A DNA stretch of 64,000 bases from Lysinibacter sp. HNR. Its GTDB lineage: Bacteria; Actinomycetota; Actinomycetes; Actinomycetales; Microbacteriaceae. The notes below the pieces were generated by a model, which made no database searches, was not told where the DNA came from, and was given only the letters and a program-made list of their open reading frames with translations. The position numbers were made by a program, and so were the translations under genes. Each line of letters begins with the position of its first letter. Position 1 is the stretch's first letter. This document shows positions 1,321-58,720 of the stretch, one piece after another. The stretch is from contig NZ_CP121684.1 of the NCBI RefSeq assembly GCF_029760935.1, forward strand, positions 2,604,001 through 2,668,000. Reading direction: 5' to 3'.

Positions 1321-4300
1321 TCAACGTGGGCGTCGTCTCACCATAAGTAAGATTCCGGCCACAAGCAACAGGGAGGCAAGCAGCGAGATCGCTAGCGTGT
1401 CATTACCGGTGTGGGCAATCTGGTCTGTTTCGTTTTTGTTTCGGTGCCCATCACCGTCAGGATTACCAGGTCGATGCTCCTCGGTAGGGGGAGGCGGCCC
1501 CTGGGGCCCGTCGCCCCCTTCCGTTACGGTCACGGTATAGGTGAGGGTTACGCTCTGTCCCAGATCATCGTAAACGGTCACGGTGAAGCTTGTTGTTCCT
1601 ACCCAACCTTCCTCAGGAATGTACGCAACCATCGTGTCACCGCCCGGTCCGGTCACTATTCGCACCTTCCCGCTTCCAGGAGCACCCAGATTCGCCTCGG
1701 TCAGCCCCTGTAGGTTCACACCCACGGCATCGCTGAGCGGATCAAGTACGATTTCTGTTGTCCCCTGCCGCACAGTGAAGTCTTTACCCGATCCTGCGGG
1801 AGGAGCCTGCACGGTGACCCGGTAAGTAGCGGCGGCTTCCATACCCTTGTCGTCCCGATAGGTCACGTCAAAAGTGTAGACTCCGGGCTCCAAACCGTCG
1901 GCATCAAACGATACGTTGGTGCCGTCAAGGGTCGTTCGATCAGAGTGCCCGCCACCAAGAATACGATCCGTGATCTTTCCCGGGGTTGTTACCCGCTCGG
2001 TGAAGGTGTGGCTACCCCCAACGGGAACACGAATCGCCTGATCGTGAGCGGTCAGTCCCGCAACCACGGTTACCGTGTAGGTGACGGCGGTGCGCTGTCC
2101 CAGGTCATCCACGAACTCCACCGTGAAGGTGTAGTCACCCGGTTTTGCATCGCCCGCCTCAAACGTAATCGTTCCGGTGTCCGGGTCGATCACAACGCTT
2201 CCGCCACTCTCACCGTTTTCACCGGTGGGGCCGTTGGCCAACGCAATATCCGAGAGGGAACCGGTCGTCTCTACCTCGGGAGTGAAGACGTAGCTACCAC
2301 CCTCCGGGGTTTCACCCGTGGTTGGTCCGGTCACTGAGGGCCTCTGTTGTACCTCAAAGAGCACGGTATCCGAGTTCTCCAGACCCAATTCGTCGGTCAC
2401 CGTGAATTCGACCTCGTCGGGGTCGTAGTTTCCGAGGAAGGGTGTGTAGTGCACAACACCCTGGGATGTCGCGATCACCGTTTCACCGTTCACCGTGGCC
2501 CCCAGAGCGGTGAGGGTTTTTGGCGCGTAGATGGTACGCCGAACCTGCAGCACATCCTCAAGGAGCTCGTGTGTGGTGGCTGCTGCTTTCGCTTCCGCTA
2601 GGCTGGTCTCTGCCGTCGGCAATTCCTCGTCTGCCTCGTCCACGGAGAACACGTTGTACGCGGTCAGCACATCCTGGGGGACGATGACTGTCTGGTGGTG
2701 AGCCTGCGGCACAGCGTACACGTTGATCCGCACCACAGAGGAGCTTTCCTGACCGTATGCGTCACGAACCGTGTAAACAAAGGCATCGTGTCCGGTGAAT
2801 CCGGTCTCGGGGGTGTAGGTCACCACACCGGGTTGGGCATCCTCGTTATCGATATCTTCTGTATCGATGGACACCTCACCAAAGAGGGTTCCCGTCACTC
2901 CCACCAGCTCTGCGTTGGCAAAGAGCTTGGTGAGGTCTACCTGAACCGCAGTACCAATAGAGGTATTTGCCACGGTGTCGTTCGTAACCGGTCCCCCCAC
3001 CAGGGTTACCGTCACGGTTTTGGTGACCGTCTGGCCCAGGTCGTCGGTGAGGGTGTAGGTGAAGGTGTCCTCGGTAACCGACGAGGGAATTTCCGCGTTG
3101 GCGGTGTAGGTGACCAACCCGGTTTCTTCGTCGTATGAGACGGTTCCGTAGACTCCGCCGCTGACCGTAATCTCGCTGTTGGCAAGGTCGGCAATCGACG
3201 AGAATGCCGAGTTGGCGGCCAGATCGAACACCCCGGTTCCTGCGCGGCCGGCGTTAATCGCGCTGTCCTGAGCGGTTGGCACACCCTGTAGTTGCAGGGT
3301 GACGGTGGCACTGACCGCACGACCGCCGGAGTCCCGCACCACATACACGAGCGTGTCTGATGCGGTGCTCTGATCCTTTGCCGTGTAGACCAGCGATTGG
3401 CCGTCGATGGTTACCTCACCGTTTGTGGGTTCGGTCGAAATCTCGTCGAGCGCGAGTTCGTGTCCCGTGTCGTTGGCGAGAACGGGGAGCGTCACCGCCC
3501 GGTCGGTGCGGATCTTGATCGAGTCGTTCACCGCAACCGGAACAACCAAAACCGTAATGGTGACGGTTCCTGTTGCTTCGGCTCCCGATGCGTCCTTCAT
3601 CGTGTAGGTAAACGTGACCTGTTTTGAGGTGCTTCCCGCCGTAAAGTCTGCGGTGGGAACGTATGTCACCACACCGGTCTTGGTGTCGAAGCTCACCGTT
3701 CCGTCGTTTGGAGTGACGGCGGATACGGCGTTGATCACACGTGAGTCATGGCCCTCAGATACGGCCTTCGAGTCGAAGGTTGCGTTCGTGTCGGCGTGAA
3801 CCGTCAGCGTTACATTGTCGGCCGTGAGCACGACCATCGGTGTTGCTGTCGCGGTGTTACTCTCGTTACCCGCACCCGACGTGTTCGTGGGAACAACCAC
3901 AAACTCATACTCCGTACCGTTCGTGAGACCCGTCACCGTATACGCAGCATCCGTCGACGCGTGAACAACCTCAGTCCACGCACCCGGCAAAACACCCTTC
4001 ACACGGTACTTCACCACATAACCCTGAACCGGGTTCGCGGCATCCGCATCCGGTGCCGTCCACACCAGATCAACCCGCGAGTCACCCGGGGTGGCCGCAA
4101 GATTGGTCACATTCGAATCCTCATCGGGCGCACCAATCGGAGTTGCCGTCGCGGTGTTACTCGGGTTTCCCGAACCGCTCGCGTTCGTGGGAACAACCAC
4201 AAACTCATACTCGGTACCGTTCGTAAGACCCGTCACCGTAAACTCAGCATCCTTCGACGCGTGAACAACCTCGATCCACTCGGTCGCACCGGTCGCACGG

Positions 4301-7300
4301 TACTTCACCACGTAACCGGTCGCAAGAGAGCCCTCCGGCGCGGACCACTTCAGATCCACCACGGTGTCACCGGGTGTTGCCGCCAAATCGGTAACCGTGG
4401 ACTCCTCGCCCGGCGCACCAATCGGAGTCGCCGAAACCGTGTTACTCGGGTTACCCGAACCGCTCGTGTTCGTGGGAACAACCTGGAACTCGTACTGAGT
4501 ACCGTTCGTCAGACCGGTCACCGAGTAAGCAGCATCCGTCGACGCGTGAACAACCTCAGTCCACGCACCCGGCAAAATACCCTTCACACGGTACTTCACA
4601 ATGTAACCCTGAACCGGGTTCGCAGCATCTGCCTCGGGGGCAGTCCACACCAGATCAACCACGGTATTACCCGGAGTCGCCGCAAGGTCTGTTACGTTCG
4701 AATCCGCATCGGGCGCACCAATCGGGGTCGCCGAGAACGGTTCGCTCCACTCACTCTTCAGGTCGGCGGCGTTCACCGCGGCCACGCGGAACTCGTACTC
4801 CGTACCGTTGCTGAGCTTCGTTACGACCGTGCTCAGGTCCGACGCGGGAAGGCGCTCCCCCGCGTCTGCCCACTCACCGTCGGCAGTACGAACCTGCAAC
4901 ACGTAGTAGGTGAGCTCAGCGCCCCCCGTGTTGGAAGGAGCGGTCCAGGTCACACGCGCCTCGGTATCACCGGGACGAACCTCCGTAATCACGGGGGCAT
5001 CCGGGGTGCCCACGGGAGTTGCCGTGAGCACGTTGCTTTCCGGACCCACACCGGCGGTATTCATACCCGAGACGCGGAAGGAGTATTCGGTTCCATTTGT
5101 CAATCTACCAACCGTGTAGCTGAGATCGCCATCCAGATCTTCCAGAGAAACCGTAATCGAATCCCACGTGACACCCGCATCCGCAGAATACTCAATGAGA
5201 TATCCCGTCAGCGCTGAACCTCCCGTGTTTTCGGGGGCTTCCCACGTCAGCTTCACCTCGGTATCACCGGCTTCTGCCTCTAGTAGGACCGGAGCATCTT
5301 CAAGCGCGGGTGCCGGGGTGAGAATAAGCGTGTTGCTCCACTCACCCAATCCGGCACCGTTGCGAGCCGCAACCTGGAACCAGTGTTCGGTACCGTTTGT
5401 CAGCTGATCTTTAAGGGTCTCGCGATCCAGAGGCTCTTCCCCGGGGGCACGGGTGTGCGTCTGCCAGGTAACGCCACCGTCGGTCGAGTAGCGGATGCTG
5501 TACTCGGTAATCGCATCGCCACCGTCGCTCTCCGGCTGCGTCCACGAGAGCAAGGCTTCGCCGTCGCCCGCTCGTCCCGTGAGTACGGGAGCGCTTGCCG
5601 TGGTACGGGGAGTGGCCGTCACTATGGTCGACTCGGGGCTCGTGAAGCCGCCATCATTCGTAACCGTAATACGGAACCAATAGGGGGTGCCATTAATCAG
5701 GCCGCCCACCACACGAGCGGTATCCAGCTTGCCGTCCTCGGTTGCCGGAACAGGTGTCCACACCCCGTTTTCCGGGGTGCATTCGGTGTAAGCGGGGTTT
5801 TCGCCACCCGGCACCTGGCATATCTCAACCGTGTATTCAACCAGGTCGGATCCGCCGTCGTTGAGGGGCGCACGCCAGTTCAGCGTGACCTGCTCGTCAC
5901 CCGGAACAACGTCTTCTTGGTTCTGTTCAATTCTGGGTGCCGTGGGGGAACCAACCGGCTTATTAATGGTTTTGGTGCCGGGAACGTTTGTTTCGGGGGT
6001 GTTCCACGGGCCTCGACCGTCGCGGGTCTCGCTAGAGTCCTCGGCGTCGTTCACCGCGGCCACTCGGAACTCGTACCACTGGCCGTTCATCAGGTCGGTC
6101 ACGGTAATTTCCGTGTCGGTTGAAGGATCATGTTCAAATGTCTTCCAACCGATTTCGCCGGGAAGGCTCTCCGCTATCGATTGGAGGATGCCGGAGCTCT
6201 TGAGAACCCCTGACCCCTGCTGTGATGCGTCGGCACCCGGTGCGGAGGTCTCGCGGTACTGCACCACATAGTCCACAATCGTGAAACCACCGTTATTTTC
6301 CGGCGCTTCCCAGTTGAGATCAATCTTGCTGTCGCCGCTTGTTGTCTCAAGATTGGTTGGAGCGTCAGGAGTACCCATCGGGCGCGCCTTCACGGGGCCA
6401 CCCCAGGGACCGGTACCGTATGAGTTTGCTGCGGCAACGCGGAACCAGTAGTCCCTGTTATTTGTCAGGTCAAGAACCGTTTCGGGGGAACCGAGTACCT
6501 GCCCCGGATCGCCCGTTATCGGGTCCGTGGGAACCCACTCCATCCAGCCCGTGAGGGGGTCGGTATTCGTGTCCGGACCGGGGAGAGAGGCCCCGCCATC
6601 TTCTAATTCGCTGAGGTCAACCCTGGTGTACTGCAACGCGTGATGCGTCACCCCGGATCCGCCCGCAGGGGCCGTTGATATCTCAACAACACCACCCACA
6701 AGACCGTTAGCTTTGAGGACACGCCACCCCTCGGCAGAAACTGCAACGCTACTGAGCGCAGGGGTTCCGGCAGGGTTAATCTGTTCAGACCAGGTTTGTC
6801 CGTTGTTATCCGACGTCCACACCGCACCCGTGTAATGACGCCCACCCACAACCAAACGAGAACCATCATACGACGAATCAACACTCACCCACGACCCCGC
6901 CGTCGCCTCCGTCCCCAAACTAAACGCCTGGAAACCCTCCGCATCCACCAACGACCCAGCCGTCCCCAAACCAGCCAAAGCATCCGAACGAGAAACAAAC
7001 ACCCGCGACACCACACCAGCACCAGAACCCGTGGTACGCACCACCATCAACGTCCGACCATCACCCGACAGCGATACCGCCCGAACATCACCAGCACCCA
7101 TATCCGGACGATGCTGGAAAGCCCCACCACCCTCGGAAACATACACACCCGCATTCGCCGAACCATGATAACGAGCCGCAACAATCCGCGAACCATCACG
7201 CGAAATATCAACACCCGCCCACGACATCGTCGACGGAATATTCGTGCGATTCACCGTCCCCGCACTCACATCCTCCACCCACGACGCACCACCATCACGA

Positions 7301-10300
7301 GAAACATACAACGCCCTGTTATACCTCGTGGTGGCAGACGTAGTCACCCCCGACGGAGGAGCCGCAACAAGAACACTCCCATCCCCCGACACCGCAACCC
7401 GCCAACGAGAATCAGCCTGATTATTGGAATACTCCCAACCAGAACCAGTCACAACGTATGACCCCGTCGCAGGAACACCCCGCGCAATCTGACTCTCCCA
7501 CACCACAGAAGAACCATCAGTCACATTCCGCGCAAGAGACACATACCCATTCGCACCCGGAGAACCCACAAGAATCGTCTGACCATCACCCGACACCGCA
7601 ACAGCCATCTGGCCCCCCGCATACCGAGAACCACCCACGTTATAAGACCCAAACGACACACCCGCATCCGTGGAAACATACACCAAATTATCAAAGTTAA
7701 CAGAACCGGGCCGCCCTAACGCAATAACCCGACCATCATCCGACATCGAAACAGCCCACTCACCCTCAGCCCCAGCAGCAGGAAGACCAGCCAACCCCGA
7801 CCACGAACGAACCGCCTCAGACCACGACACCGTCGCCTCACGATCACCACCCAACGCAAAGAGATTCTGTGGTGCACCACCCGGAGCACTACTCCCCACC
7901 ATCGTCCTCGCGAACACAGGCTCGGACCACCCACTAACACCCACACTATTCACCTGCGCCACCCGGAACCAATACACCGTATCCGATGCCAAGCCCACCC
8001 GAGGATCAGCACCCGTGACCACCTGCGACAACGCAGGCGACGGCTCATGCTCAAAAAGCGTCCACGACGACTCAGCAAACCCCTCACCCGACGGATCCTG
8101 ATCCGTATACTGCACCAGATAATCAACCGGATTACTCCCACCATCAGCAGGAGTCGTCGAGATCTCAACATGACCACCCACAAGACCGTCAGCCCGGAGA
8201 ACCTTCCACCCATCCGCAGAAATAGCCACACTGCTCAGCGCCGGGGTGCGCGTGGAACGCGTCTCCGCGTTCCAGGTTTGTCCGTTGTTATCCGACGTCC
8301 ACACCGCACCCGTGTAATGACGCCCACCCACAACCAAACGAGAACCATCATACGACGAATCAACACTCACCCACGACCCCGCCGTCGCCTCCGTCCCCAA
8401 ACTAAACGCCTGGAAACCCTCCGCATCCACCAACGACCCAGCCGTCCCCAAACCAGCCAAAGCATCCGAACGAGAAACAAACACCCGCGACACCACACCA
8501 GCACCAGAACCCGTGGTACGCACCACCATCAACGTCCGACCATCACCCGACAGCGATACCGCCCGAACATCACCAGCACCCATATCCGGACGATGCTGGA
8601 AAGCCCCACCACCCTCGGAAACATACACACCCGCATTCGCCGAACCATGATAACGAGCCGCAACAATCCGCGAACCATCACGCGAAATATCAACACCCGC
8701 CCACGACATCGTCGACGGAATATTCGTGCGATTCACCGTCCCCGCACTCACATCCTCCACCCACGACGCACCACCATCACGAGAAACATACAACGCCCTG
8801 TTATACCTCGTGGTGGCAGACGTAGTCACCCCCGACGGAGGAGCCGCAACAAGAACACTCCCATCCCCCGACACCGCAACCCGCCAACGAGAATCAGCCT
8901 GATTATTGGAATACTCCCAACCAGAACCAGTCACAACGTATGACCCCGTCGCAGGAACACCCCGCGCAATCTGACTCTCCCACACCACAGAAGAACCATC
9001 AGTCACATTCCGCGCAAGAGACACATACCCATTCGCACCCGGAGAACCCACAAGAATCGTCTGACCATCACCCGACACCGCAACAGCCATCTGGCCCCCC
9101 GCATACCGAGAACCACCCACGTTATAAGACCCAAACGACACACCCGCATCCGTGGAAACATACACCAAATTATCAAAGTTAACAGAACCGGGCCGCCCTA
9201 ACGCAATAACCCGACCATCATCCGACATCGAAACAGCCCACTCACCCTCAGCCCCAGCAGCAGGAAGACCAGCCAACCCCGACCACGAACGAACCGCCTC
9301 AGACCACGACACCGTCGCCTCACGATCACCACCCAACGCAAAGAGATTCTGTGGTGCACCACCCGGAGCACTACTCCCCACCATCGTCCTCGCGAACACA
9401 GGCTCGGACCACCCACTAACACCCACACTATTCACCTGCGCCACCCGGAACCAATACACCGTATCCGATGCCAAGCCCACCCGAGGATCAGCACCCGTGA
9501 CCACCTGCGACAACGCAGGCGACGGCTCATGCTCAAAAAGCGTCCACGACGACTCAGCAAACCCCTCACCCGACGGATCCTGATCCGTATACTGCACCAG
9601 ATAATCAACCGGATTACTCCCACCATCAGCAGGAGTCGTCGAGATCTCAACATGACCACCCACAAGACCGTCAGCCCGGAGAACCTTCCACCCATCCGCA
9701 GAAATAGCCACACTGCTCAGCGCCGGGGTGCGCGTGGAACGCGTCTCCGCGTTCCAGGTTTGTCCGTTGTTATCCGACGTCCACACCGCACCCGTGTAAT
9801 GACGCCCACCCACAACCAAACGAGAACCATCATACGACGAATCAACACTCACCCACGACCCCGCCGTCGCCTCCGTCCCCAAACTAAACGCCTGGAAACC
9901 CTCCGCATCCACCAACGACCCAGCCGTCCCCAAACCAGCCAAAGCATCCGAACGAGAAACAAACACCCGCGACACCACACCAGCACCAGAACCCGTGGTA
10001 CGCACCACCATCAACGTCCGACCATCACCCGACAGCGATACCGCCCGAACATCACCAGCACCCATATCCGGACGATGCTGGAAAGCCCCACCACCCTCGG
10101 AAACATACACACCCGCATTCGCCGAACCATGATAACGAGCCGCAACAATCCGCGAACCATCACGCGAAATATCAACACCCGCCCACGACATCGTCGACGG
10201 AATATTCGTGCGATTCACCGTCCCCGCACTCACATCCTCCACCCACGACGCACCACCATCACGAGAAACATACAACGCCCTGTTATACCTCGTGGTGGCA

Positions 10301-13300
10301 GACGTAGTCACCCCCGACGGAGGAGCCGCAACAAGAACACTCCCATCCCCCGACACCGCAACCCGCCAACGAGAATCAGCCTGATTATTGGAATACTCCC
10401 AACCAGAACCAGTCACAACGTATGACCCCGTCGCAGGAACACCCCGCGCAATCTGACTCTCCCACACCACAGAAGAACCATCAGTCACATTCCGCGCAAG
10501 AGACACATACCCATTCGCACCCGGAGAACCCACAAGAATCGTCTGACCATCACCCGACACCGCAACAGCCATCTGGCCCCCCGCATACCGAGAACCACCC
10601 ACGTTATAAGACCCAAACGACACACCCGCATCCGTGGAAACATACACCAAATTATCAAAGTTAACAGAACCGGGCCGCCCTAACGCAATAACCCGACCAT
10701 CATCCGACATCGAAACAGCCCACTCACCCTCAGCCCCAGCAGCAGGAAGACCAGCCAACCCCGACCACGAACGAACCGCCTCAGACCACGACACCGTCGC
10801 CTCACGATCACCACCCAACGCACGCACACCCTGAGGCACCAGCCCCACACTGGGACCATCATAGGTATGAGCACTCACGGGAGCGCTCCACACCCCCCGG
10901 CCGATTTCGTTCAACGCAGCCACCCGGAACCAATAGGTTGTTCCAATTGCAAGTTGATCAATAGTTCGAGAGAGGGTTTCCGCATCGTATTCCCCAGCTG
11001 AGATCCAATCGTCTTCGGTTGCCTCTTCCGGGTCCACCGCAGAGTAGCTGAGCGCATAACCCGTCACGGGGGAACCACCGTCCGCAGGTGCCGCGGCCCC
11101 GCGCACCCGTCCGCCAGAGACTCCACTGCCAATATAGGTTGCCCAACCGTTAGAGGATATGGCAACCGTACTCGAGGCGGTCATGGCACGGGCAAAGGGC
11201 TGTATCGTCGACCACGTTTGGCCGTGGTCAACGGACTCCCACACGAACCCGTCTACGTGCTGCCCACCCACCAGAATGCGCTGACCGTCGAACGAGATAG
11301 CCGCGTTCAACCACGACCCGTTAAGACCCTGAGCCAAAAGACCCGAGGGGTTCACAAGCGAAGCCGTGGTACCGAGCCCCGAGGGGATTTCCGCCCGTGA
11401 AACAAAGAGCGTTGATACGCCACCGGTTCGCTTCACGATGGCAAGCGTTTTTGCGTCTCCCGAGAGCGCGACATCCCAATTGGTGCCCATGTTGACGCCC
11501 GAAACAGCAACAAGACCCATATCGGGCCGCGCGCTAAACGTAGCACCGGCATCCTCGGAAACATAGAGGCCGCCGTTATCGGTGCGCGCCACAACAATCG
11601 TGCGGCCATCGGCCGAGACATCCACGCTCCACAGTCCACCGGCAACCAGGCCGGAGCCGTTGGCCCAGGTTCGGCCACCGTCACGCGATACCGTCACGGT
11701 TCCGTCGACCCGGCCCACGGCGAGCACGTTGCCGTCATGCGAAGAAGCAACCGCCCAGCGGTCCACCACCCGGGAGGCCAAGTTGGGGAACGTCGCAACG
11801 GATTGCTGCTGCCACGACACATTGCTAGCATTGGCCACGTCACGCGCGACCCACACGTTACCGGCGGGGCGACCCACAATGAGGGTGCGGCCATCACCCG
11901 ACACATCAACACCCCACGAAAGGTTTGCGGCCAAAGAACCAAGGGCAGCCTGCTCCGTATAGGTGCGACCAAAGTTAGTGGATACGTAGAGTTTTCCGCC
12001 CGGCTGACCCATAATAACCACCCGACCGTCCTCGGAGGTTGCGGTTGACCAGTGACCGCTGGCCCCATTGGCCCCCGCAAGCGTGGGGTCGGCAATCTTC
12101 ATCTCGTTGCCCAGAGCTTTCCAGCGAACATCCGCCGATTCGGAAAGGCCCCTCGCGCTGAGACCACTCGGTGCTTCAATGGGTGCGGATACCGAACGAT
12201 CCGTGCGCGTAGACTCCACGCTCGACCACTCGCCCGGGCCAAAGGAGTTCACCTCGGCCACCCGGAACCAATACTGCGTATCACGGTTGAGCCCCGTGAA
12301 GAGACGGGACAGATCCAAGCGATCAACCTCGGCGTGGGTCTGCCACGACACGGCTTCGGGGTTCTCCCCCGGATTTTCGCTCGTGATCTGCACCCGGTAG
12401 CCCGTAGCAGCCTGCTTCGCTCGCTCATCCATGCTCGGCAGCCACGCATCCGCGCTCACGCCCCCGCTCACCCCGTTACCCGTGATAACGCGGCGTCCTG
12501 AACCGGAGAGGGCAACGGCCGTTGTTGCCTCACCCTTTACCCGAGTACGCTGCTCTGTCCACGAGGAGCCTCGATCGTAGGATGCCCAGATTGAGCCCTG
12601 TGCGTGATACCCACCGGCAATAATGCGCGAACCGTCTCGCGATACGCTCACCGACCCGAGAGTGCTACCCGCACCGCCCGGGAAGAAGCCCTGGGGGTCT
12701 ACCAGCGAAGCGGTCGTTCCGAGCTCGGCCGGGGAATCCGCCCGTGACACCAAAAGCTGTGACGACGCGCCCACCCGCTTCACCACGGCCAGGGTACGGC
12801 CGTCACCCGAGAGGTCAAGCTCCCAAAGGTTGCCCCAGGTGAGCCAGGTATTCGCGGGAATTGTACCCATATCGGGGCGCGTTGCAAACGACACCCCACC
12901 GTTGGTGGAGACGTAAAGCCCCCCGCCGGAGAACGCAGCCACAATCACCTGGCCGTTGTCCGAGATCGCGACCGACCAAAACTCGCTGCTCAGCGGGGGT
13001 GTTCCCACCCCAGCCGCCGGAGCCCAACTGGCACCCGCGTTACGCGAGACATAGAGAGGACCGGTCAAAGAGTTTGCCGATACGGGCCGAGCGGCAATAA
13101 GCGTCTGCCCGTCAAGCGACGAGGCAACATCCCAGCGAACCGTGGGATTGATATCGTTATTGGCCACGCTATTTCCGGTGAGCGGAACACCCTTGTTTGT
13201 TTGGATCTCCCACGACGCTTTTTGCGCATCGGTCACGTTCTGGGCAAGCCAGAGGCCCTGCGAGGCACCCGGTTTACCCACGAGCACCGTGCGGCCATCG

Positions 13301-16300
13301 CCAGACACGTTCACACCCCAGGTCAGCCCCTGCGGCGCGGTTCCCAGGGTCTCTTGGGGGTGAAAAGTCTTACCGGCATCAGTCGAGAGAAACACCCGAC
13401 CGCCCGGCTGGCCCTTCACCACAACCCTGCCGTCGAGAGAGGAGGCAATAGACCACGACGAACGATCCGCGGCAAACCCCGTGTTGGAACCCGGCACTTC
13501 GGCGGGGTTCTTATCCCATTCCCAGGCATCCTCGACACCTCGATTCCACTTCACTTCCACCCGGTCAGAACCAGCGGAGCCCGATACCGAATGCGGGGTG
13601 ACACCCTTGCGCTCAAAATCCAAACCGTCGGGCACCGTGTATGCAGAACCAGGAAGACTCCACGATCCCCTGCCGTTCACGTTGACCGCTGCCACCCGGA
13701 ACCAATACTGTGTGGCGGCATCCAATCCATCGACAACCCTACGCTTTTCGAGCGACGGCGAGCCCTCGGAATCGACATCCTTCCAGTTCACCTCATCCGG
13801 TTTGTTCCCCGGATCCTCAGCCGTGTACTGGACCCTGTAGTCACTATTTGCCAGCGCGGCCAGAGCCTCAGCCCCCGGCACCCACGCCGTTCTTGCCACA
13901 CCGTCTTTCAGACCGTTACCCACGATGGCACGCAACCCGTTATTGGAGAGCTCAACAGTGGTCGAGGATGCCTTACGCTCAAAGCCTCCCTGCTCACTCC
14001 ACGAGATTCCACCGTCGACTGACAGCCACACACCGCCCCGGGCGCTATACCCCGAAGCGACCAAGCGCTGACCGTTTCCGGAAACCGAAACGTTCAGAAT
14101 GTTCCCCGCAGGAACGGCTCCGGTGGGCTTCACGAGAGACCCGGTGGTGCCCAGCCCAGCCAGGTCGGCGGAACGCGATACCAGCACTTGAGAGCCCTCC
14201 GCGTTCGAGCGTTTCACCATGGCAAGAGTGGTGCCGTCATCCGAGAGGCTCAGGCTCCAATTCGAGGTGAATTCCGTATAAACCGAGTTGAGCGGCACCG
14301 TGCCCATATCGGTCTTTTGGGTGAAGGTCACCCCGGAGTCGGTGGAGATATAGAGCCCTCCCCCGGCGCGGGCCGCGGCCACGACGCGACCGTCGGCAGA
14401 AACATCAACGAACCAGTTACTATCCGATGCGTTTCCCGGGTTAGTTATCGTGCTCCAGGTGGCACCGCCGTTACGTGAAACAAAAATATTGGTGTGATAA
14501 CGTCCCACAACAAGCACCTGCCCGTTGGCGGAGGAGGCAACCTCCCAGCGCACCCCGGCAGAACTCCAGGTTCCCGCGTTGGTCATTGCCGGAATCCCTC
14601 CCTGTACCGCCCAGCTCACCGCGTTCGCATCACTCACATTGTGGGCAACCCGCACGGTTCCGGCGGCACCCGGCTGACCAACGATGACCGTGCGGCCGTC
14701 AGCAGAAACGTCTACCGCCCAGCTCGTTGCGGCGGGGGCGGTACCCACATCCTGAGCAACAAAGTTTTTACCCGCGTCTGTCGAGAGGAACATCCGCCCA
14801 CCCGGCTGACCCTTCGCCACGACCCGGCCATCGGCAGAGGAGGCAACCGCCCATGAGGAGAAGTTGTCCCCCACCGAACTATTCGAAGCAGGGTTATCCT
14901 GCGGAGCCGCATCCCATTCCCACGCATTAGCGAGACCGGCACCCCATGACACCTCTGCCTGGTGCTCGCCGCCAATAGCAACGACATCCTGTGGTGTTGC
15001 ACCCTTCGCGGTAAACCCGTCACGACTTCCAACAAGCGCGCGCACGGGGGCAGACCACTCACCCTGACCGTTTCCGTTCACCTCGGATACCCGAAACCAG
15101 TAGTCCGAGCGCTGGGTAAGCCCCGTGACAACCCGGCTCTTTTCGAGAGAGGCGGTGCCTTCCCGGTCATAATCCGTCCAGCGCGCCTCGTCCGGCTTGT
15201 TCCCCGGGTTCTCCGTGGTGTATTGGATCTTGTAGTCGATGGGGGTGTAGCTTTCACGCGGCGGCGCGGTCTCATCCCAGTTGATATTGGCGGTCGAAAC
15301 TTTTCCGCCGTTTAAACCGTTACCTAGGAGAAACTGGCCCGAGGGATCAATCGCAGAAAGAGCCATATACGAGACCGGCTTCTTATCAGCAGACGGTCTT
15401 TCATCCCACGTTTTTCCACCATCGGTCGAAGCCCAGAAAGACCCCTCCGCATGATAGCCACTCACCACTATGTGGTCGCCGCCGTGCGAAGTAGCCGCTT
15501 TCACCCAGTTGTTCCCGGTTCCCTGCGAGGCAAATCCTGCGGGCTCCACAAACGTTGCCGCGGTGCCCAGAAGGCTCGGATCATGTGTTTGCGAAACAAA
15601 AGCCACCGAGGAACCACTAATCGTGCGGGTTACCACAAGGGTGCTCGCATCACCAGAGATAGCTACACCCCAGCCTTGACCACCGGGGCCATCCGTTGCC
15701 GCACCAAAATCCGCTTTACGGGTAAAAGTAACACCGGAGTCCACCGATACGTACACACCGGGATTCGTTCCGTTTGCACGAGCCGCAACGATAACCTTGC
15801 CATCGTGTGAGATATCCATATCACTCCAGGAGGAGTCATATGAAGCACCCACCACGCCTGCTGTTGATGACACCCCCCACGTAGCACCCGCATCCCGCGA
15901 AACGTATAGGCCGCCACTGTAGTAACCACCCTCTACCATAACCTGGCCGTTACCGGACACCGCAGCAGAGCTACGGGCTCGAGGGTTAGCAGTTCCACCA
16001 TCAGCCGGAGCGGTTGTGAGTGTCCAGGAAATCGCATTGGGGTCTTGCACATTCTTGGCAACCCACGGGCGTTCACCCTGGCCCTGTCGAATCGCAATGA
16101 TGGTTTTACCGTCGGCGGAGACATCAACCCCCCACGACATACCGCTCTGCGGAACCGGCACGGGTTTACCCGTACCGGTCTGCGGCACAAATGTGACACC
16201 ACCATCGGTAGACACGTAGAGTGATCCGCCGGGTTGGCCCAGCACCACCGTTTGACCGTCGGCAGAAGAGGCAACAGCCCATCGGGTAATGCCTGCGGCC

Positions 16301-16611
16301 TGGTTTGTTATTGCACTGGGAGAGTTTTCGAGTGTTACCGGCGGCACCCAGCCCCGAAGTCGGGGTTTACCCGCCTCCCACGAAACGGTAGCCTCGTTTT
16401 CGCCACCAACGGCAGAAACGTTAACGGGTATCGCACCCAGATCTTGGGGAAGTATCTCGACGCCAGAGTTGGCCGCACCCGCGCTGCCCTCCACCGAGAA
16501 CGCGGGCTCAGCAAACGTGAGGGGTGCGAGCAGAGCAGCGGACAGCGCCAGTGCTGTCGATATCCGAAAGCCACGAAACTGATTCACCGAAATGTTGGTT
16601 AAAAAGCTCAC
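1321..16611 (-). CDS. giant multi-module wall-anchored surface protein
   Basis: A single reading frame of about 5,096 residues. The open frame reaches a TTG at 16626, but the GTG at 16611 is preceded by GGGGA at good spacing and gives a clean signal peptide ending near AEPAFS, so I prefer it. Residues ~45-3,420 are seven modules of 430-495 residues. Each module is a run of BNR/propeller-like motifs (S.DG..V..G, YVS.DGG.TF) followed by one fibronectin type III domain ending in YWFRVA.VN. Residues ~3,420-4,265 are eight further FnIII domains. Residues ~4,265-5,030 are about seven or eight cadherin-like/Ig-like domains. A Pro/Gly/Asn-rich linker leads to IAHTG, a hydrophobic helix and RRRPR, which is a variant LAxTG sorting signal. 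The likely role is adhesion or glycan binding; no catalytic signature was seen. Modules 5-7 lie in tandem DNA repeats with different codon use. Confidence 0.85.
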   Translation of the reverse strand: MSFLTNISVNQFRGFRISTALALSAALLAPLTFAEPAFSVEGSAGAANSGVEILPQDLGAIPVNVSAVGGENEATVSWEAGKPRLRGWVPPVTLENSPSAITNQAAGITRWAVASSADGQTVVLGQPGGSLYVSTDGGVTFVPQTGTGKPVPVPQSGMSWGVDVSADGKTIIAIRQGQGERPWVAKNVQDPNAISWTLTTAPADGGTANPRARSSAAVSGNGQVMVEGGYYSGGLYVSRDAGATWGVSSTAGVVGASYDSSWSDMDISHDGKVIVAARANGTNPGVYVSVDSGVTFTRKADFGAATDGPGGQGWGVAISGDASTLVVTRTISGSSVAFVSQTHDPSLLGTAATFVEPAGFASQGTGNNWVKAATSHGGDHIVVSGYHAEGSFWASTDGGKTWDERPSADKKPVSYMALSAIDPSGQFLLGNGLNGGKVSTANINWDETAPPRESYTPIDYKIQYTTENPGNKPDEARWTDYDREGTASLEKSRVVTGLTQRSDYWFRVSEVNGNGQGEWSAPVRALVGSRDGFTAKGATPQDVVAIGGEHQAEVSWGAGLANAWEWDAAPQDNPASNSSVGDNFSSWAVASSADGRVVAKGQPGGRMFLSTDAGKNFVAQDVGTAPAATSWAVDVSADGRTVIVGQPGAAGTVRVAHNVSDANAVSWAVQGGIPAMTNAGTWSSAGVRWEVASSANGQVLVVGRYHTNIFVSRNGGATWSTITNPGNASDSNWFVDVSADGRVVAAARAGGGLYISTDSGVTFTQKTDMGTVPLNSVYTEFTSNWSLSLSDDGTTLAMVKRSNAEGSQVLVSRSADLAGLGTTGSLVKPTGAVPAGNILNVSVSGNGQRLVASGYSARGGVWLSVDGGISWSEQGGFERKASSTTVELSNNGLRAIVGNGLKDGVARTAWVPGAEALAALANSDYRVQYTAEDPGNKPDEVNWKDVDSEGSPSLEKRRVVDGLDAATQYWFRVAAVNVNGRGSWSLPGSAYTVPDGLDFERKGVTPHSVSGSAGSDRVEVKWNRGVEDAWEWDKNPAEVPGSNTGFAADRSSWSIASSLDGRVVVKGQPGGRVFLSTDAGKTFHPQETLGTAPQGLTWGVNVSGDGRTVLVGKPGASQGLWLAQNVTDAQKASWEIQTNKGVPLTGNSVANNDINPTVRWDVASSLDGQTLIAARPVSANSLTGPLYVSRNAGASWAPAAGVGTPPLSSEFWSVAISDNGQVIVAAFSGGGLYVSTNGGVSFATRPDMGTIPANTWLTWGNLWELDLSGDGRTLAVVKRVGASSQLLVSRADSPAELGTTASLVDPQGFFPGGAGSTLGSVSVSRDGSRIIAGGYHAQGSIWASYDRGSSWTEQRTRVKGEATTAVALSGSGRRVITGNGVSGGVSADAWLPSMDERAKQAATGYRVQITSENPGENPEAVSWQTHAEVDRLDLSRLFTGLNRDTQYWFRVAEVNSFGPGEWSSVESTRTDRSVSAPIEAPSGLSARGLSESADVRWKALGNEMKIADPTLAGANGASGHWSTATSEDGRVVIMGQPGGKLYVSTNFGRTYTEQAALGSLAANLSWGVDVSGDGRTLIVGRPAGNVWVARDVANASNVSWQQQSVATFPNLASRVVDRWAVASSHDGNVLAVGRVDGTVTVSRDGGRTWANGSGLVAGGLWSVDVSADGRTIVVARTDNGGLYVSEDAGATFSARPDMGLVAVSGVNMGTNWDVALSGDAKTLAIVKRTGGVSTLFVSRAEIPSGLGTTASLVNPSGLLAQGLNGSWLNAAISFDGQRILVGGQHVDGFVWESVDHGQTWSTIQPFARAMTASSTVAISSNGWATYIGSGVSGGRVRGAAAPADGGSPVTGYALSYSAVDPEEATEDDWISAGEYDAETLSRTIDQLAIGTTYWFRVAALNEIGRGVWSAPVSAHTYDGPSVGLVPQGVRALGGDREATVSWSEAVRSWSGLAGLPAAGAEGEWAVSMSDDGRVIALGRPGSVNFDNLVYVSTDAGVSFGSYNVGGSRYAGGQMAVAVSGDGQTILVGSPGANGYVSLARNVTDGSSVVWESQIARGVPATGSYVVTGSGWEYSNNQADSRWRVAVSGDGSVLVAAPPSGVTTSATTRYNRALYVSRDGGASWVEDVSAGTVNRTNIPSTMSWAGVDISRDGSRIVAARYHGSANAGVYVSEGGGAFQHRPDMGAGDVRAVSLSGDGRTLMVVRTTGSGAGVVSRVFVSRSDALAGLGTAGSLVDAEGFQAFSLGTEATAGSWVSVDSSYDGSRLVVGGRHYTGAVWTSDNNGQTWNAETRSTRTPALSSVAISADGWKVLRADGLVGGHVEISTTPADGGSNPVDYLVQYTDQDPSGEGFAESSWTLFEHEPSPALSQVVTGADPRVGLASDTVYWFRVAQVNSVGVSGWSEPVFARTMVGSSAPGGAPQNLFALGGDREATVSWSEAVRSWSGLAGLPAAGAEGEWAVSMSDDGRVIALGRPGSVNFDNLVYVSTDAGVSFGSYNVGGSRYAGGQMAVAVSGDGQTILVGSPGANGYVSLARNVTDGSSVVWESQIARGVPATGSYVVTGSGWEYSNNQADSRWRVAVSGDGSVLVAAPPSGVTTSATTRYNRALYVSRDGGASWVEDVSAGTVNRTNIPSTMSWAGVDISRDGSRIVAARYHGSANAGVYVSEGGGAFQHRPDMGAGDVRAVSLSGDGRTLMVVRTTGSGAGVVSRVFVSRSDALAGLGTAGSLVDAEGFQAFSLGTEATAGSWVSVDSSYDGSRLVVGGRHYTGAVWTSDNNGQTWNAETRSTRTPALSSVAISADGWKVLRADGLVGGHVEISTTPADGGSNPVDYLVQYTDQDPSGEGFAESSWTLFEHEPSPALSQVVTGADPRVGLASDTVYWFRVAQVNSVGVSGWSEPVFARTMVGSSAPGGAPQNLFALGGDREATVSWSEAVRSWSGLAGLPAAGAEGEWAVSMSDDGRVIALGRPGSVNFDNLVYVSTDAGVSFGSYNVGGSRYAGGQMAVAVSGDGQTILVGSPGANGYVSLARNVTDGSSVVWESQIARGVPATGSYVVTGSGWEYSNNQADSRWRVAVSGDGSVLVAAPPSGVTTSATTRYNRALYVSRDGGASWVEDVSAGTVNRTNIPSTMSWAGVDISRDGSRIVAARYHGSANAGVYVSEGGGAFQHRPDMGAGDVRAVSLSGDGRTLMVVRTTGSGAGVVSRVFVSRSDALAGLGTAGSLVDAEGFQAFSLGTEATAGSWVSVDSSYDGSRLVVGGRHYTGAVWTSDNNGQTWSEQINPAGTPALSSVAVSAEGWRVLKANGLVGGVVEISTAPAGGSGVTHHALQYTRVDLSELEDGGASLPGPDTNTDPLTGWMEWVPTDPITGDPGQVLGSPETVLDLTNNRDYWFRVAAANSYGTGPWGGPVKARPMGTPDAPTNLETTSGDSKIDLNWEAPENNGGFTIVDYVVQYRETSAPGADASQQGSGVLKSSGILQSIAESLPGEIGWKTFEHDPSTDTEITVTDLMNGQWYEFRVAAVNDAEDSSETRDGRGPWNTPETNVPGTKTINKPVGSPTAPRIEQNQEDVVPGDEQVTLNWRAPLNDGGSDLVEYTVEICQVPGGENPAYTECTPENGVWTPVPATEDGKLDTARVVGGLINGTPYWFRITVTNDGGFTSPESTIVTATPRTTASAPVLTGRAGDGEALLSWTQPESDGGDAITEYSIRYSTDGGVTWQTHTRAPGEEPLDRETLKDQLTNGTEHWFQVAARNGAGLGEWSNTLILTPAPALEDAPVLLEAEAGDTEVKLTWEAPENTGGSALTGYLIEYSADAGVTWDSITVSLEDLDGDLSYTVGRLTNGTEYSFRVSGMNTAGVGPESNVLTATPVGTPDAPVITEVRPGDTEARVTWTAPSNTGGAELTYYVLQVRTADGEWADAGERLPASDLSTVVTKLSNGTEYEFRVAAVNAADLKSEWSEPFSATPIGAPDADSNVTDLAATPGNTVVDLVWTAPEADAANPVQGYIVKYRVKGILPGAWTEVVHASTDAAYSVTGLTNGTQYEFQVVPTNTSGSGNPSNTVSATPIGAPGEESTVTDLAATPGDTVVDLKWSAPEGSLATGYVVKYRATGATEWIEVVHASKDAEFTVTGLTNGTEYEFVVVPTNASGSGNPSNTATATPIGAPDEDSNVTNLAATPGDSRVDLVWTAPDADAANPVQGYVVKYRVKGVLPGAWTEVVHASTDAAYTVTGLTNGTEYEFVVVPTNTSGAGNESNTATATPMVVLTADNVTLTVHADTNATFDSKAVSEGHDSRVINAVSAVTPNDGTVSFDTKTGVVTYVPTADFTAGSTSKQVTFTYTMKDASGAEATGTVTITVLVVPVAVNDSIKIRTDRAVTLPVLANDTGHELALDEISTEPTNGEVTIDGQSLVYTAKDQSTASDTLVYVVRDSGGRAVSATVTLQLQGVPTAQDSAINAGRAGTGVFDLAANSAFSSIADLANSEITVSGGVYGTVSYDEETGLVTYTANAEIPSSVTEDTFTYTLTDDLGQTVTKTVTVTLVGGPVTNDTVANTSIGTAVQVDLTKLFANAELVGVTGTLFGEVSIDTEDIDNEDAQPGVVTYTPETGFTGHDAFVYTVRDAYGQESSSVVRINVYAVPQAHHQTVIVPQDVLTAYNVFSVDEADEELPTAETSLAEAKAAATTHELLEDVLQVRRTIYAPKTLTALGATVNGETVIATSQGVVHYTPFLGNYDPDEVEFTVTDELGLENSDTVLFEVQQRPSVTGPTTGETPEGGSYVFTPEVETTGSLSDIALANGPTGENGESGGSVVIDPDTGTITFEAGDAKPGDYTFTVEFVDDLGQRTAVTYTVTVVAGLTAHDQAIRVPVGGSHTFTERVTTPGKITDRILGGGHSDRTTLDGTNVSFDADGLEPGVYTFDVTYRDDKGMEAAATYRVTVQAPPAGSGKDFTVRQGTTEIVLDPLSDAVGVNLQGLTEANLGAPGSGKVRIVTGPGGDTMVAYIPEEGWVGTTSFTVTVYDDLGQSVTLTYTVTVTEGGDGPQGPPPPTEEHRPGNPDGDGHRNKNETDQIAHTGNDTLAISLLASLLLVAGILLMVRRRPR
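6790..8271 (-). repeat. tandem 1,482-bp repeat in giant gene, C-proximal copy
   Basis: One complete 494-codon unit, holding a propeller portion and the FnIII linker. It appears identical to 8272-9753, since shared reading frames on both strands line up base for base at an offset of 1,482. The identity starts abruptly at 6790, where the preceding sequence turns to a different codon style. Confidence 0.92.
8272..9753 (-). repeat. tandem 1,482-bp repeat in giant gene, middle copy
   Basis: Second full unit, in frame with its neighbours. The period is divisible by three, so copy-number changes by recombination would keep the protein in frame. Confidence 0.92.
9754..10822 (-). repeat. tandem 1,482-bp repeat in giant gene, partial N-proximal copy
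   Basis: The first 1,069 bp of the unit in plus-strand order. Identity with the other copies stops at 10822, within the segment that begins module 5. The linker that follows belongs to module 4 and differs. Confidence 0.9.
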
Positions 16612-16626
16612 TAAAATTCCCCACAA

Positions 16627-17092: not shown

Positions 17093-18091
<999 letters not shown>

Positions 18092-18143
18092 TCAAAGTGG
18101 CAGTATGCACGTTCCGATTGCTCGGATACGGTTATGAAACCGC

Positions 18144-24607: not shown

Positions 24608-24656
24608 CGTGAAGGGAATCCCTGTTTACTCGGGATTCCCTTCACGTTTAATTTTT
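24608..24656. terminator. bidirectional terminator between solute-binding gene and 5S rRNA
   Basis: A perfect 15-bp stem (24608-24622 with 24632-24646) with a 9-nt loop, followed on the plus strand by TTTAATTTTT. It separates the convergent solute-binding gene and rRNA operon and can serve both. Confidence 0.85.
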
Positions 24657-24775
24657 GTTCGGCGGTGTCCTACTCTCCCACACGGTCCCCCGTGCAGTAC
24701 CATCGGCGCTGTGAGCCTTAGCTTCCGGGTTCGGAATGTCACCGGGCGTTTCCCTCACGCTATAACCACCGAAAC
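24657..24775 (-). rRNA. rrf: 5S ribosomal RNA
   Basis: About 117-119 nt. The complement shows the conserved 5S features: terminal stem made by the ends, loop with CCGAAC-type sequence, and the 3' end reading GGACACCGCCGAA. Ends are estimated to within a few bases. It is the last RNA of the operon. Confidence 0.93.
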
Positions 24776-24992
24776 ACTCGTGATACAACCAACCACCCAC
24801 ACCCCCACACACAAGGAAGAGGGGCGGGTTCTGGAGTAATCAACAACATGTTCCAATCACACATTATTTACTTACATCAGTTCTTGATCGTCTATCAAGA
24901 ACCACAAAGTGGACGCACACAACACACAACAATAACTGTCTTACACAACCCCACCACCACCATAAAATACAGGCGGGGTGAGTAAAGAATTT
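24776..24992 (-). other. 23S-5S internal transcribed spacer
   Basis: About 217 nt without a tRNA. It contains an anti-terminator/processing-like motif near 24890-24915 similar to those flanking the other rRNAs. Confidence 0.6.
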
Positions 24993-30212
<5,220 letters not shown>

Positions 30213-30650
30213 ATGCATAAAAAGCAACAACCCCACCACCCACACAAGTGAACAGCACAGCTGCGCTAAACATAAAACAACACCACACACCCCCACAACA
30301 GCGAAAGCATGCAGCATCACGAGTTCAAAACTGACACACAAATCAAAAACTGACTTGCATAATCAAATAAATAAACCAAAAAGTCCCCACAACACACACC
30401 ACAACCAACCACAACGATCAGCCACAGCACATGCCACAGAAACCAAAAAATTGGCATATAACATTAGTGCACACTATTGAGTTCTCAAAGACCAGACACA
30501 CCACAACCAACAAGCCACCACACAAGCAACCCACCAGAAACGGCACACACCCACCAACAAAACAACCCCCACACAAGAGAGCATCCCACTAGCAAGCAAG
30601 AACCCCGTACAAGCCACAACACAACATCACGACCCCGGGGTACTTCGAAT
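30213..30650 (-). other. pre-16S leader
   Basis: G/U-rich on the RNA strand and almost free of C. It contains TTTGAGAACTCAATAG (30475-30490), the box A-like motif of actinobacterial rRNA leaders, and the 5' half of the 16S processing stem at 30455-30463. Confidence 0.65.
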
Positions 30651-30679
30651 ACACTACGCCCAAACCCCACCCAACACAA
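30651..30679 (-). promoter_or_regulatory. candidate rRNA operon promoter
   Basis: On the minus strand TTGTGT (-35 like, 30674-30679) and TAGTGT (-10 like, 30651-30656) are separated by exactly 17 bp and followed by a GC-rich discriminator. Only partly consensus; other promoters may lie further upstream up to ~31000. Confidence 0.35.
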
Positions 30680-31139
30680 ATCCCCACCACCCACCCACCC
30701 ACCACACACCCCAAAAACCCCCAAAAAACAACACAAAACCCACCACAAACACCACCACCACAAACACACCCCGGGCGTGTCGCACACCACCACACCACCA
30801 ACAACACAACACCCCAAAACACCCCAAAACACGAACGGCCACCCCTGGACGAGAGCCCTAACAAGAACATATCGGGCAGCAAGCAGGCAGAGAAGAAATA
30901 CCTTATGGATCTCATGAACTATGCGTGAACGATACCAACACGGCCCACCAGCAACCCTAGGCAGCGCAATAGACACCACTCGCTGACTCGATCTTTAAGC
31001 TTCACGAAGAGCGAAGCCCTCCTTCAAGGAAAGAATCTTCCTGATTTATTAGATTTAGTTATAAATTAGATAACTTTTATTTACATTAAACATTACTTAT
31101 TTAAGTTGATTTGGTACAAAGCAATTTTATATATTTTTT
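30680..31139. other. strand-biased and AT-rich region between rRNA operon and LPMO gene
   Basis: From 30680 to ~30840 the minus strand is strongly G-rich, with five runs of three or more G at 30682-30712 (a potential G-quadruplex). From ~31035 to 31140 the sequence is very AT-rich and should hold the plus-strand promoter of the LPMO gene and perhaps UP-like sequence. No gene seen; open frames here are low-complexity artefacts. Confidence 0.5.
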
Positions 31140-31175
31140 GTATCGACACCTAGAAATTTTCTTAGGTGCCGATAC
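31140..31175 (+). promoter_or_regulatory. imperfect 36-bp palindrome upstream of the LPMO gene
   Basis: 31140-31175 forms a stem of about 15 bp with a small mismatch and an AT-rich centre. It lies 45 bp before the start codon. It may be an operator or a 5'-UTR hairpin; there is no T tract positioned as in a terminator. Confidence 0.5.
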
Positions 31176-31220
31176 CGTAATTCAATCTCAATTACACAAG
31201 CCGAAAGAGGGCAAACATTA

Positions 31221-56437: not shown

Positions 56438-56709
56438 ACCTATGAAGATTTTGATGCCCGCCCGCGAAGACGCAAGACTACACCAACACCTAACAGAGCC
56501 AGTACCGCCCCAACCAGCAAGAACGGATCGTGCGCTCCGGTCTTACTTAGTGTGGCAGGAGAACCCTTAGCGTTAGCTTCCGCTGCTTTCTGAGCATCAG
56601 AGGGAACTGTCACAGCCCCACCCTTCTGCTCAGCAGCTTTAGGCGTCTCCGTATTGGAACCAGCAACGTTAGGCTCTTCCTTCTCAGGCTTCTCCTCAGG
56701 CTCAGGCTT

Positions 56710-57420
56710 AGGCTCCTCAGCATTCTGAGCCTCCGCAACCACCTTCAACGCAGCAGCATCATCCTTTAGAAGATCCTGAACCTTACCCAGAAGAGCAGCT
56801 TTCTCTTCCCCTTCCAGCTTTCCAACAGTCTCAGCAAGAACCTTCTTCACCTCATCAAGCTTCTGACGCTCAGTTTCCTGACCGGCAAGAATACCCTTGA
56901 TCTGCGCAGCAATCTTGTCCTCAGGCTTCTCCTCAGGCTCAGGCTTAGGCTCCTCAGCATTCTGAGCCTCCGCAACCACCTTCAACGCAGCAGCATCATC
57001 CTTTAGAAGATCCTGAACCTTACCCAGAAGAGCAGCTTTCTCTTCCCCTTCCAGCTTTCCAACAGTCTCAGCAAGAACCTTCTTCACCTCATCAAGCTTC
57101 TGACGCTCAGTTTCCTGACCGGCAAGAATACCCTTGATCTGCGCAGCAATCTTGTCCTCAGGCTTCTCCTCAGGCTCAGGCTTAGGCTCCTCAGCATTCT
57201 GAGCCTCCGCAACCACCTTCAACGCAGCAGCATCATCCTTTAGAAGATCCTGAACCTTACCCAGAAGAGCAGCTTTCTCTTCCCCTTCCAGCTTTCCAAC
57301 AGTCTCAGCAAGAACCTTCTTCACCTCATCAAGCTTCTGACGCTCAGTTTCCTGACCGGCAAGAATACCCTTGATCTGCGCAGCAATCTTGTCCTCAGGC
57401 TTCTCCTCAGGCTCAGGCTT
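56710..57420 (-). repeat. three tandem 237-bp repeats
   Basis: Three apparently identical 237-bp units (79 residues each), with offsets of exactly 237 bp. They encode Lys/Glu/Ala-rich helical sequence (for example GQETERQKLDEVKKVLAE) that should act as a stalk. Confidence 0.93.
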
Positions 57421-58529
57421 ATCTGCGGCCTGAACAGTGATTGTGTATTGACGAGTTGTCTCTCCCAGCTCATTTTTTGCAACTAGAGCAAAAGTATATT
57501 CTCCTGGAGATACAGTTTTTTCCACATTGCCCTCAATGAGTAAGGTATCGGGATTCAAAGTCAAACCCTTAGGAAGCAATCCTCCCGTACCCGTGTCCGT
57601 CTTGACCCCTACCCTAGGTGCAGGAAAGCCCCCAGCTATAACTTTGAGCGAAACCAGCTCACCAACCTTTACTGTTGCGCCTGAAATCTCACCCAGAGTC
57701 GGAGTACCACTAAACTTGGCGGTAATAGGGTAACCTTCTGCCTTGATCGCTTTAATGTAACCGACATGCGCCTCAATCGTATACTCACCAGGTTTTTTAC
57801 CAATAATCCTTGTCTTTGCAACACCAGAAGAATCCGTGACGACACGCTCCGATGTCAAGCTGGCACCCAGATCATCATTATTCGCAATAGAGAAATTAAC
57901 CACAGCCTTTTCTATAGGCTTATCTGTCGCCAGATCCTTCAGCACAACCGTTGCTTCATGAGAATAATCGCTGCCCGTCGAAACAAGGCCCCTAGTCACC
58001 TGCAGTGTAGGAGCCATCTTGGTGTGGGTCTCCACGTAGGGTGCATAGTATGAAGTACCCATTCTTGTAACCGTACCTTCACCCTTCACCTCTTTGGGGA
58101 CAGTTGTTTGCCCGTCATAGTTCGATCCCCACGCGTAGACCTTTCCCTCAGTGGTCAAAGCCATTGAGTGCCACGCAGCGGCAGCAATCGCGACAACAGT
58201 CTTGCCCGTTAAGTCCCCAGGAACCTTCGCTTGACCATTATCGTTATACCCCCAAGCTTCAATTTTGCCCTCTGAATTCAGAGCCAGGGAGTGATGATAA
58301 CCGGAAGCTATCGCCGTATACACGCCTTGTGATAGTGTATCGGGAACAGGAATCATATTCTTAGGGTCATTTTCGATTTTGTTGGATTTTCCCCAGTTGA
58401 CCACTTTTCCATCGTTAGTCAATGCCACACCATGGTCTGTACCGCCGGTTAATGCCGCAATATTTCCCGCATTATTCTTCAACTCCGGCGGAGCATCTAA
58501 CTGCCCACCGGTATTACTCCCCCAGGAAA

Positions 58530-58720
58530 AGAACTGATTGTCCTCAGTAACCACCATTGAATATTCTTCGCCGGTGCTAATAATTCTGGCCTTAGCTCCC
58601 GTATCCCCTTTCAACGCATTAGGAAAATTAGTCTGCTGCTTGTAATCGTCTGCTCCCCACGAGTAAACTCTTCCATCTTCAGCCTTCGCAAGTAAGTGAC
58701 TGTGCCCAGAGACTAGACCC
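58530..58720. repeat. left copy of long direct duplication flanking the IS
   Basis: 191 bp identical to 60369-60559. The duplicated sequence belongs to the RCC1 surface gene. The last two bases (CC) could belong to the inverted repeat of the element, giving 189-191 bp. Interpreted as a target-site duplication. Confidence 0.93.

Follow-up and report, generated by a model that had tools for sequence, protein, structure and literature searches.

Repeated DNA in the actinobacterium Lysinibacter sp. HNR tends to be rich in G and T (the keto bases) on the leading sense of replication, and this strand-linked pattern is well supported for the 56% of the genome that we surveyed. The case we start from is a tandem array in a giant gene for a predicted surface protein. 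It lies in a stretch of 64,000 nucleotides (the window, positions 2604001-2668000 of the single-contig genome of 2.918 Mb), and its codons end almost entirely in G or T. Import of the repeat is not supported; we give about an even chance to the view that copies homogenised by recombination drift to G/T on the leading sense.

The tandem array of the giant gene

The gene and its repeats are on the reverse strand of the window:

1321..16626, reverse strand: giant gene, predicted surface protein, 5101 codons counted from the first TTG
6790..10822, reverse strand: tandem array, 2.72 identical copies of 1,482 bp, keto-rich third positions
9341..10822, reverse strand: array copy 1, first in the gene
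7859..9340, reverse strand: array copy 2
6790..7858, reverse strand: array copy 3, partial; identity ends within the module
3832..4734, reverse strand: older fn3 repeats of the giant gene, 75-86% DNA identity, intermediate keto bias

The protein starts with what by eye looks like a signal peptide. It continues with about seven BNR/propeller-plus-fn3 modules, followed by fn3 and Big_9 domains, and ends in a hydrophobic C-terminal anchor preceded by an IAHTG motif, which is presumably a sortase motif. One array unit is one propeller-plus-fn3 module of 494 codons. Its predicted structure (mean pLDDT, the predicted local distance difference test score, of 75.6 from 9 sequences) is almost entirely beta, and the top structural matches in the PDB are mostly beta-propellers; a sequence search of the PDB with the unit gave no match.

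The sequence matches itself at an offset of 1482 over 6790-9340 and at an offset of 2964 over 6790-7858, with zero mismatches in both; this sets the limits of the array at 6790 and 10822. Three copies contain the first 1,069 bp of the unit, and two contain the rest. An earlier note made from the sequence had claimed about 2.7 identical copies of 1,482 bp, a period divisible by three, and a recent tandem amplification. The first two are what we find, and the unit preserves the reading frame; the third is supported, whether as amplification or as homogenisation.

The note had also seen G/T-ended codons inside the repeats and a switch of codon use at their edges, and both are real. Third bases in one unit are A 1.6%, C 6.7%, G 47.8% and T 43.9%; in codons 1-1935 and 3301-3950 of the same gene they are A 10.8, C 32.2, G 32.8 and T 24.2%. 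The third-position keto fraction of the unit is 0.917. Across 483 leading-strand open reading frames (ORFs) of at least 250 codons with no detected repeats, this fraction has a mean of 0.564, a standard deviation of 0.047 and a maximum of 0.69. With amino acids fixed, and treating codons as independent, the keto excess of the unit has z = 17.2. A three-segment fit to the composition profile places change-points at 10851 and 6808, which are 29 and 18 bp off the repeat edges; A/C-ended codons make up 7.5% within the array, 41.6% before it and 46.8% after it (log-likelihood gain of 355). The diverged tail of copy 3, past the end of identity, has ordinary codon composition. The G+C content of third positions (GC3) is about 0.55 in the unit, down from about 0.65. 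First positions are shifted too: leucine codons in six repeat units are TTG 46, CTG 12, CTC 3 and CTT 20, and in leading ORFs without detected repeats TTG 2406, CTG 6587, CTC 5733 and CTT 5273.

The bias rises with repeat identity in two genes. In the giant gene, synonymous keto is 0.895 in segments at 90% identity or more, 0.761 at 80-90%, 0.597 at 70-80%, 0.476 below 70%, and 0.500 outside repeats. In the gene at 2847180-2849399, two copies that are 98.8% identical have keto 0.874, and the more diverged repeats 0.613 and 0.535.

Other repeat genes and the replication strand

Our survey covers 68 blocks with 1.628 Mb and 1041 ORFs of at least 200 codons. Just 13 of these ORFs have 100-codon windows in which A3+C3 is 0.2 or less, and in 10 of the 13 such windows coincide with DNA repeated inside the gene at about 72-100% identity. 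By our own reading of the sequences, which is the source of all 13 names, the ten repeat genes are of unrelated make-up: two propeller, two collagen-like, four RCC1-containing (in one of which the repeat is a stalk), one HtaA-like and one immunoglobulin-like. Two prophage-like genes and one small membrane protein complete the 13. The window holds a second array with the same bias:

56683..57421, reverse strand: second array, 3.1 identical copies of 237 bp, stalk of an RCC1-like protein, z 5.3

A third collagen-like gene, outside the surveyed blocks (L148, 2411-12175, 3255 codons), is G/T-ended across about 2,900 codons, with keto 0.837 vs 0.565 expected.

GC skew flips sign near 1.5 Mb, so that leading genes are on the plus strand before this point and on the minus strand after it. 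Internal DNA repeats are carried by 21 ORFs; one, in a CRISPR-like array (402874), was dropped beforehand and 20 were scored. In 11 of the 15 on the leading strand, the most identical segment is more keto than the rest of the gene by more than 0.1. Two of the five on the lagging strand are strongly A/C-rich on the coding strand: 2294434 (z -8.3, judged against the genome, since fewer than 40 codons remain outside its repeats) and 1321499 (z -4.9). In all, a shift above 0.1 is found in 13 of the 20, always in the direction of keto on the leading sense (11 leading, 2 lagging); seven have no such shift and none has the opposite one. Seven leading-strand ORFs have segments of at least 80% identity, and there z goes from 5.3 to 17.2 with amino acids fixed. 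Leading 75341, 320954 and 413934 have no repeat-specific shift above 0.1. Raised keto also occurs in some non-repeat parts, in 597010 (z 13.9) and in 75341 (z 8.6), which are perhaps decayed older repeats.

As a side observation, the CRISPR-like array at 402.9-404.4 kb (G000) was recognised by false ORFs in which a motif recurs and the spacers differ.

Ribosomal RNA spacers and other multicopy DNA

The bias is also present in non-coding parts of the ribosomal RNA (rRNA) operon of the window:

24657-24773, reverse strand: 5S rRNA
24774..24989, reverse strand: 23S-5S spacer, 66.7% G+T
24990-28130, reverse strand: 23S rRNA
28131..28690, reverse strand: 16S-23S spacer, 71.3% G+T
28691-30213, reverse strand: 16S rRNA
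30214..30839, reverse strand: 16S leader (upstream region), non-coding, 82.7% G+T in the rRNA sense

Over 24649-30839 this operon is 99.98% identical to another at 2.005-2.012 Mb, and a third copy at 2.780 Mb is cut by a block end. Beyond the end of operon-copy identity, over 30840-31220, keto falls to 56.2% from the 82.7% of the leader.

In a scan of 10,764 windows of 300 bp, 65 have at least 68% keto on the leading sense. Forty of these are in repeats of at least 70% identity, and 15 of the other 25 are in rRNA-operon spacers at two places. The ten that remain are at 708 kb, 134.5 kb, 1376 kb and 2880 kb; the keto-rich stretch at 707.9-711.4 kb (G000) has no repeat label.

Two simple explanations can be discarded with these data. 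A codon or translation effect is rejected because the two lagging-strand arrays are A/C-ended and the spacers are non-coding. A plain leading-strand equilibrium is also out: pooled intergenic DNA is 54% keto (0.543).

High identity between copies is not by itself accompanied by the bias. The IS1634 copies found at four places share 99.7-100% identity and have 53% keto; a 375-bp duplication with 99.7% identity (95763-97067) has 59% keto and no third-position shift in its ORFs.

Of separate interest, an IS1634-family transposase at 58833-60353 (NCBIfam E-value 1e-102; region 58530-60559) appears to split the RCC1-like gene. It sits between 191-bp identical direct repeats, and another copy at 2085 kb has 117-bp repeats; IS1634 makes long, variable target duplications. 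The giant gene is adjoined by nrdF and nrdE (class Ib ribonucleotide reductase, 17093-20288).

Other genomes

The 16S-23S spacer has keto 0.584-0.732 in 9 of 9 actinobacterial records, and 0.482-0.558 in 14 of 14 others. One of the nine is this genome; the others are 8 of 10 actinobacterial records among the top-40 matches listed, the two omitted being second replicons of strains already used. The 14 are two E. coli operons, five Bacillales, five other Proteobacteria, Thermomicrobium, and one 'Stenotrophomonas' record whose spacer looks Bacillus-like. The NucS status of the named spacer species is taken from the reported conservation of NucS in Actinobacteria (PMC8228993, in excerpt); the control species E. 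coli and B. subtilis are listed for MutS and not for NucS.

For arrays in coding regions, the following keto comparisons leave amino acids uncontrolled. In G168, which belongs to another genus of the same family and has NucS but no MutS match, collagen-like repeats show the shift, with keto of about 0.80-0.85 vs 0.46-0.49 at one locus and 0.61-0.78 vs 0.50 at another. In genomes where neither NucS nor MutS exceeds the cut-off, none of 10 array ORFs has a keto rise above 0.05, and several are more C-ended. Three Staphylococcaceae plasmid arrays are more A-ended, two Lactobacillus arrays change little and one Planctomyces array not at all; two further loci in that comparison have no array above 80%. 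Nine array ORFs at 75-80%, in genomes taken irrespective of NucS, have keto shifts of -0.12 to +0.07.

Two perfect or near-perfect arrays, L177 6110-11914 and L182 7044-11363, are almost purely C/G-ended. Both are in genomes with no NucS or MutS match over the cut-off. C3 is 0.77 vs 0.43 outside in L177 and 0.68 vs 0.32 outside in L182, as if another bias had been amplified.

Can NucS drive the drift?

How could homogenisation produce a drift with a direction? One possible answer, which we hold tentatively and think less probable than the drift itself, is that NucS makes conversion between repeats one-way, and so ratchets long-lived multicopy DNA towards keto on the leading strand in NucS-dependent organisms. 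NucS is found in this genome (E-value 2.7e-41), and MutS has no match in it. The higher keto of the actinobacterial 16S-23S spacers agrees with the proposal. NucS is reported to favour G-T, G-G and T-T mismatches, to act weakly or not at all on the rest (A-C especially), and to restrain recombination between non-identical sequences (PMC8228993, in excerpt). For M. smegmatis, an excerpt of PMC11551744 describes oligonucleotides on the lagging template of which those making dG-dT and dG-dG are rejected, and six mismatches with A or C are tolerated.

From these properties we infer the following chain. The nascent lagging strand of one copy would pair with the lagging-strand template of another copy. 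A mismatch of two keto bases (G-T, G-G or T-T) would be cut by NucS, so that a G or T in the template would resist conversion; an A or C in the template would be converted freely, and the leading sense would gain only G and T. Repeated rounds would ratchet the leading sense to G/T wherever selection on protein or RNA leaves sites free. Long-term homogenisation would then have left the bias as its footprint, and recombination would still be going on in the 1,482-bp array.

Several observations weigh against drift by homogenisation, against the NucS ratchet, or against both. The lagging leucine-rich repeat gene 2062804 has z +5.8 in repeats at 80-90%, +0.2 at 90% or more, and +3.6 outside repeats; lagging prophage-like 1363324 has +4.1 in the repeat and +9.5 outside. 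In both, the G/T-ended surplus extends beyond the repeat. Lagging 1000001 is a further counter-case (z +1.8 in the repeat, +3.1 outside). On the leading strand, the 77% identity repeat of 2841139 has z -2.2, and the dropped CRISPR-like ORF 402874 has keto 0.419 vs 0.727 outside (z -2.3). In the comparison of rRNA operons, the keto ranges of the 400 bp upstream of 16S overlap (0.495-0.792 in actinobacteria, 0.44-0.608 in the others), and the spacer contrast is confounded with phylogeny, with hand-picked records. Finally, a clear third-position keto shift is absent (-0.11 to +0.07) from nine arrays in nine other genomes with NucS but without a MutS match, with repeat/rest values of.31/.31,.40/.43,.45/.45,.39/.39,.45/.44,.49/.42,.38/.49,.59/.54 and.46/.47; these were selected at a 75% identity cut with a best pair of at least 80%, with amino acids uncontrolled and strand guessed. 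NucS is therefore not sufficient, and whether an array shifts may depend on how fast or for how long it has been homogenised, or on codon selection.

Other explanations

A mutational origin is unlikely, although it keeps some weight. Errors in recombining repeats would escape mismatch repair, and the raw bias of the leading-strand polymerase (A to G, C to T) would set the composition. In nucS-free Streptomyces the leading-strand bias has the right direction, with 1150 A>G vs 412 T>C and 715 C>T vs 274 G>A, about 2.7 to 1 (PMC11109965, in excerpt), so raw errors push towards keto without a ratchet, which is a further point against the role of NucS. But by a rough sum, a 2.7:1 bias leads to about 73% keto at equilibrium vs 92% in the unit, and why repeats would escape repair lacks an explanation. 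A pure transition model also fits worse. For the fourfold codons of the giant-gene unit, dropping A/C-ended codons gives a chi-square of 11.7 vs 42.7 for transitions only (8 degrees of freedom); for six units pooled the values are 34.4 vs 64.2, and neither fits the pool well. Taken singly, units 2660443, 682899 and, barely, 2847180 are better fitted by transitions only. Deamination or transition-only change is thus the poorer description, not decisively so. The spectrum of synonymous differences between copies was set aside, as composition alone may yield it.

It is improbable that the preference of RecA for G/T-rich single strands is the cause, by which segments already keto-rich on the lagging template would duplicate and persist. 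RecA does prefer TGG repeats (PMC3763553, in excerpt), and the unit exceeds the codon-use prediction for GTG (58.0 vs 50.6 +/- 2.3 per kb) and GGTG (35.1 vs 27.3 +/- 2.3). However, TGG itself is at expectation (51.3 vs 52.2 +/- 2.4). There is no single-copy pool of such segments, given the 0.69 peak among leading ORFs without detected repeats; the 375-bp duplication and the four IS1634 copies are ordinary in composition; and the composition edges coincide with the homology edges.

We see still less chance that selection is responsible, with arrays surviving when their single-stranded DNA or messenger RNA has little structure. G/T third positions do reduce folding on both strands. The energy of the unit, summed over 120-base windows, is -146.9 vs -220.5 +/- 11.6 in 40 synonymous resamplings, and that of the other strand is -109.6 vs -196.0 +/- 11.0, both with a parameter set that is unchecked. 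But an A/C-rich leading sense should reduce folding too, so the fixed direction is left unexplained, and the rRNA spacers are also biased. Selection for G-quadruplexes is out, as GGGG is not enriched in the unit over codon use (12.1 vs 16.1 +/- 2.6 per kb).

The earlier note's own explanation, that one module was imported from a foreign genome and then amplified, fits the sharp edges and unusual codons, but we reject it as very improbable because no donor with such codon use was found and the same signature recurs in unrelated repeat families, is mirrored in two lagging-strand genes, and is shared by the spacers of rRNA operons. The array unit as a query finds no relative in the genome contig collection; a profile of 9 modules finds 6 loci there, matching residues 389-487 alone (the fn3 end). 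A search of 58 other related genomes gives weak matches in 3 (E-values 1e-4 to 8e-4), and the modules closest to the unit belong to two other genes of its own genome.

If NucS were the cause of the drift, it would explain the odd composition and help to find recombining repeats, or past arrays, in genomes without MutS. It would also warn that repeats may resemble foreign DNA in their codons although nothing was transferred. A composition change that ends at the homology edge, goes with the replication strand instead of the coding strand, and is shared by protein repeats and rRNA spacers is a natural record of conversion between copies. With NucS as its driver, the process would be a strand-asymmetric biased gene conversion, readable in genomes as a record of recombination, and the role of NucS in recombination between copies would become directly testable in vivo. 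In titles and the openings of abstracts, a coverage that leaves out most subscription papers, we found no description of a strand-directed keto drift in repeats.

Comparison with known systems

The closest general analogy is GC-biased gene conversion, which shares a composition change tied to recombination and confined to recombining DNA. Here, however, GC3 falls instead of showing the expected rise, and the change is strand-asymmetric, towards keto on the leading sense.

The vls cassettes of Borrelia are also a gene-conversion array with strong coding-strand asymmetry, with a GC skew of 0.52 vs 0.18 for the leading strand (PMC11499132, in excerpt). That text explains it by selection for G-rich clusters; in our genome GGGG enrichment is absent, and two lagging arrays mirror the sign.

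As for the protein, periscope proteins have long, highly identical tandem repeats, possibly variable in number (PMC8201768, in excerpt), and the predicted surface location of the giant protein is a further likeness. The excerpt mentions no codon or strand signature for them, and in the giant gene the repeat is a whole propeller-plus-fn3 module. The WiSP genes of Tropheryma whipplei are actinobacterial surface-protein genes with recombining WND repeats, two of which share 99% identity over 784 bp (PMC2078596, in excerpt). Unlike the array described here, their repeats are dispersed.

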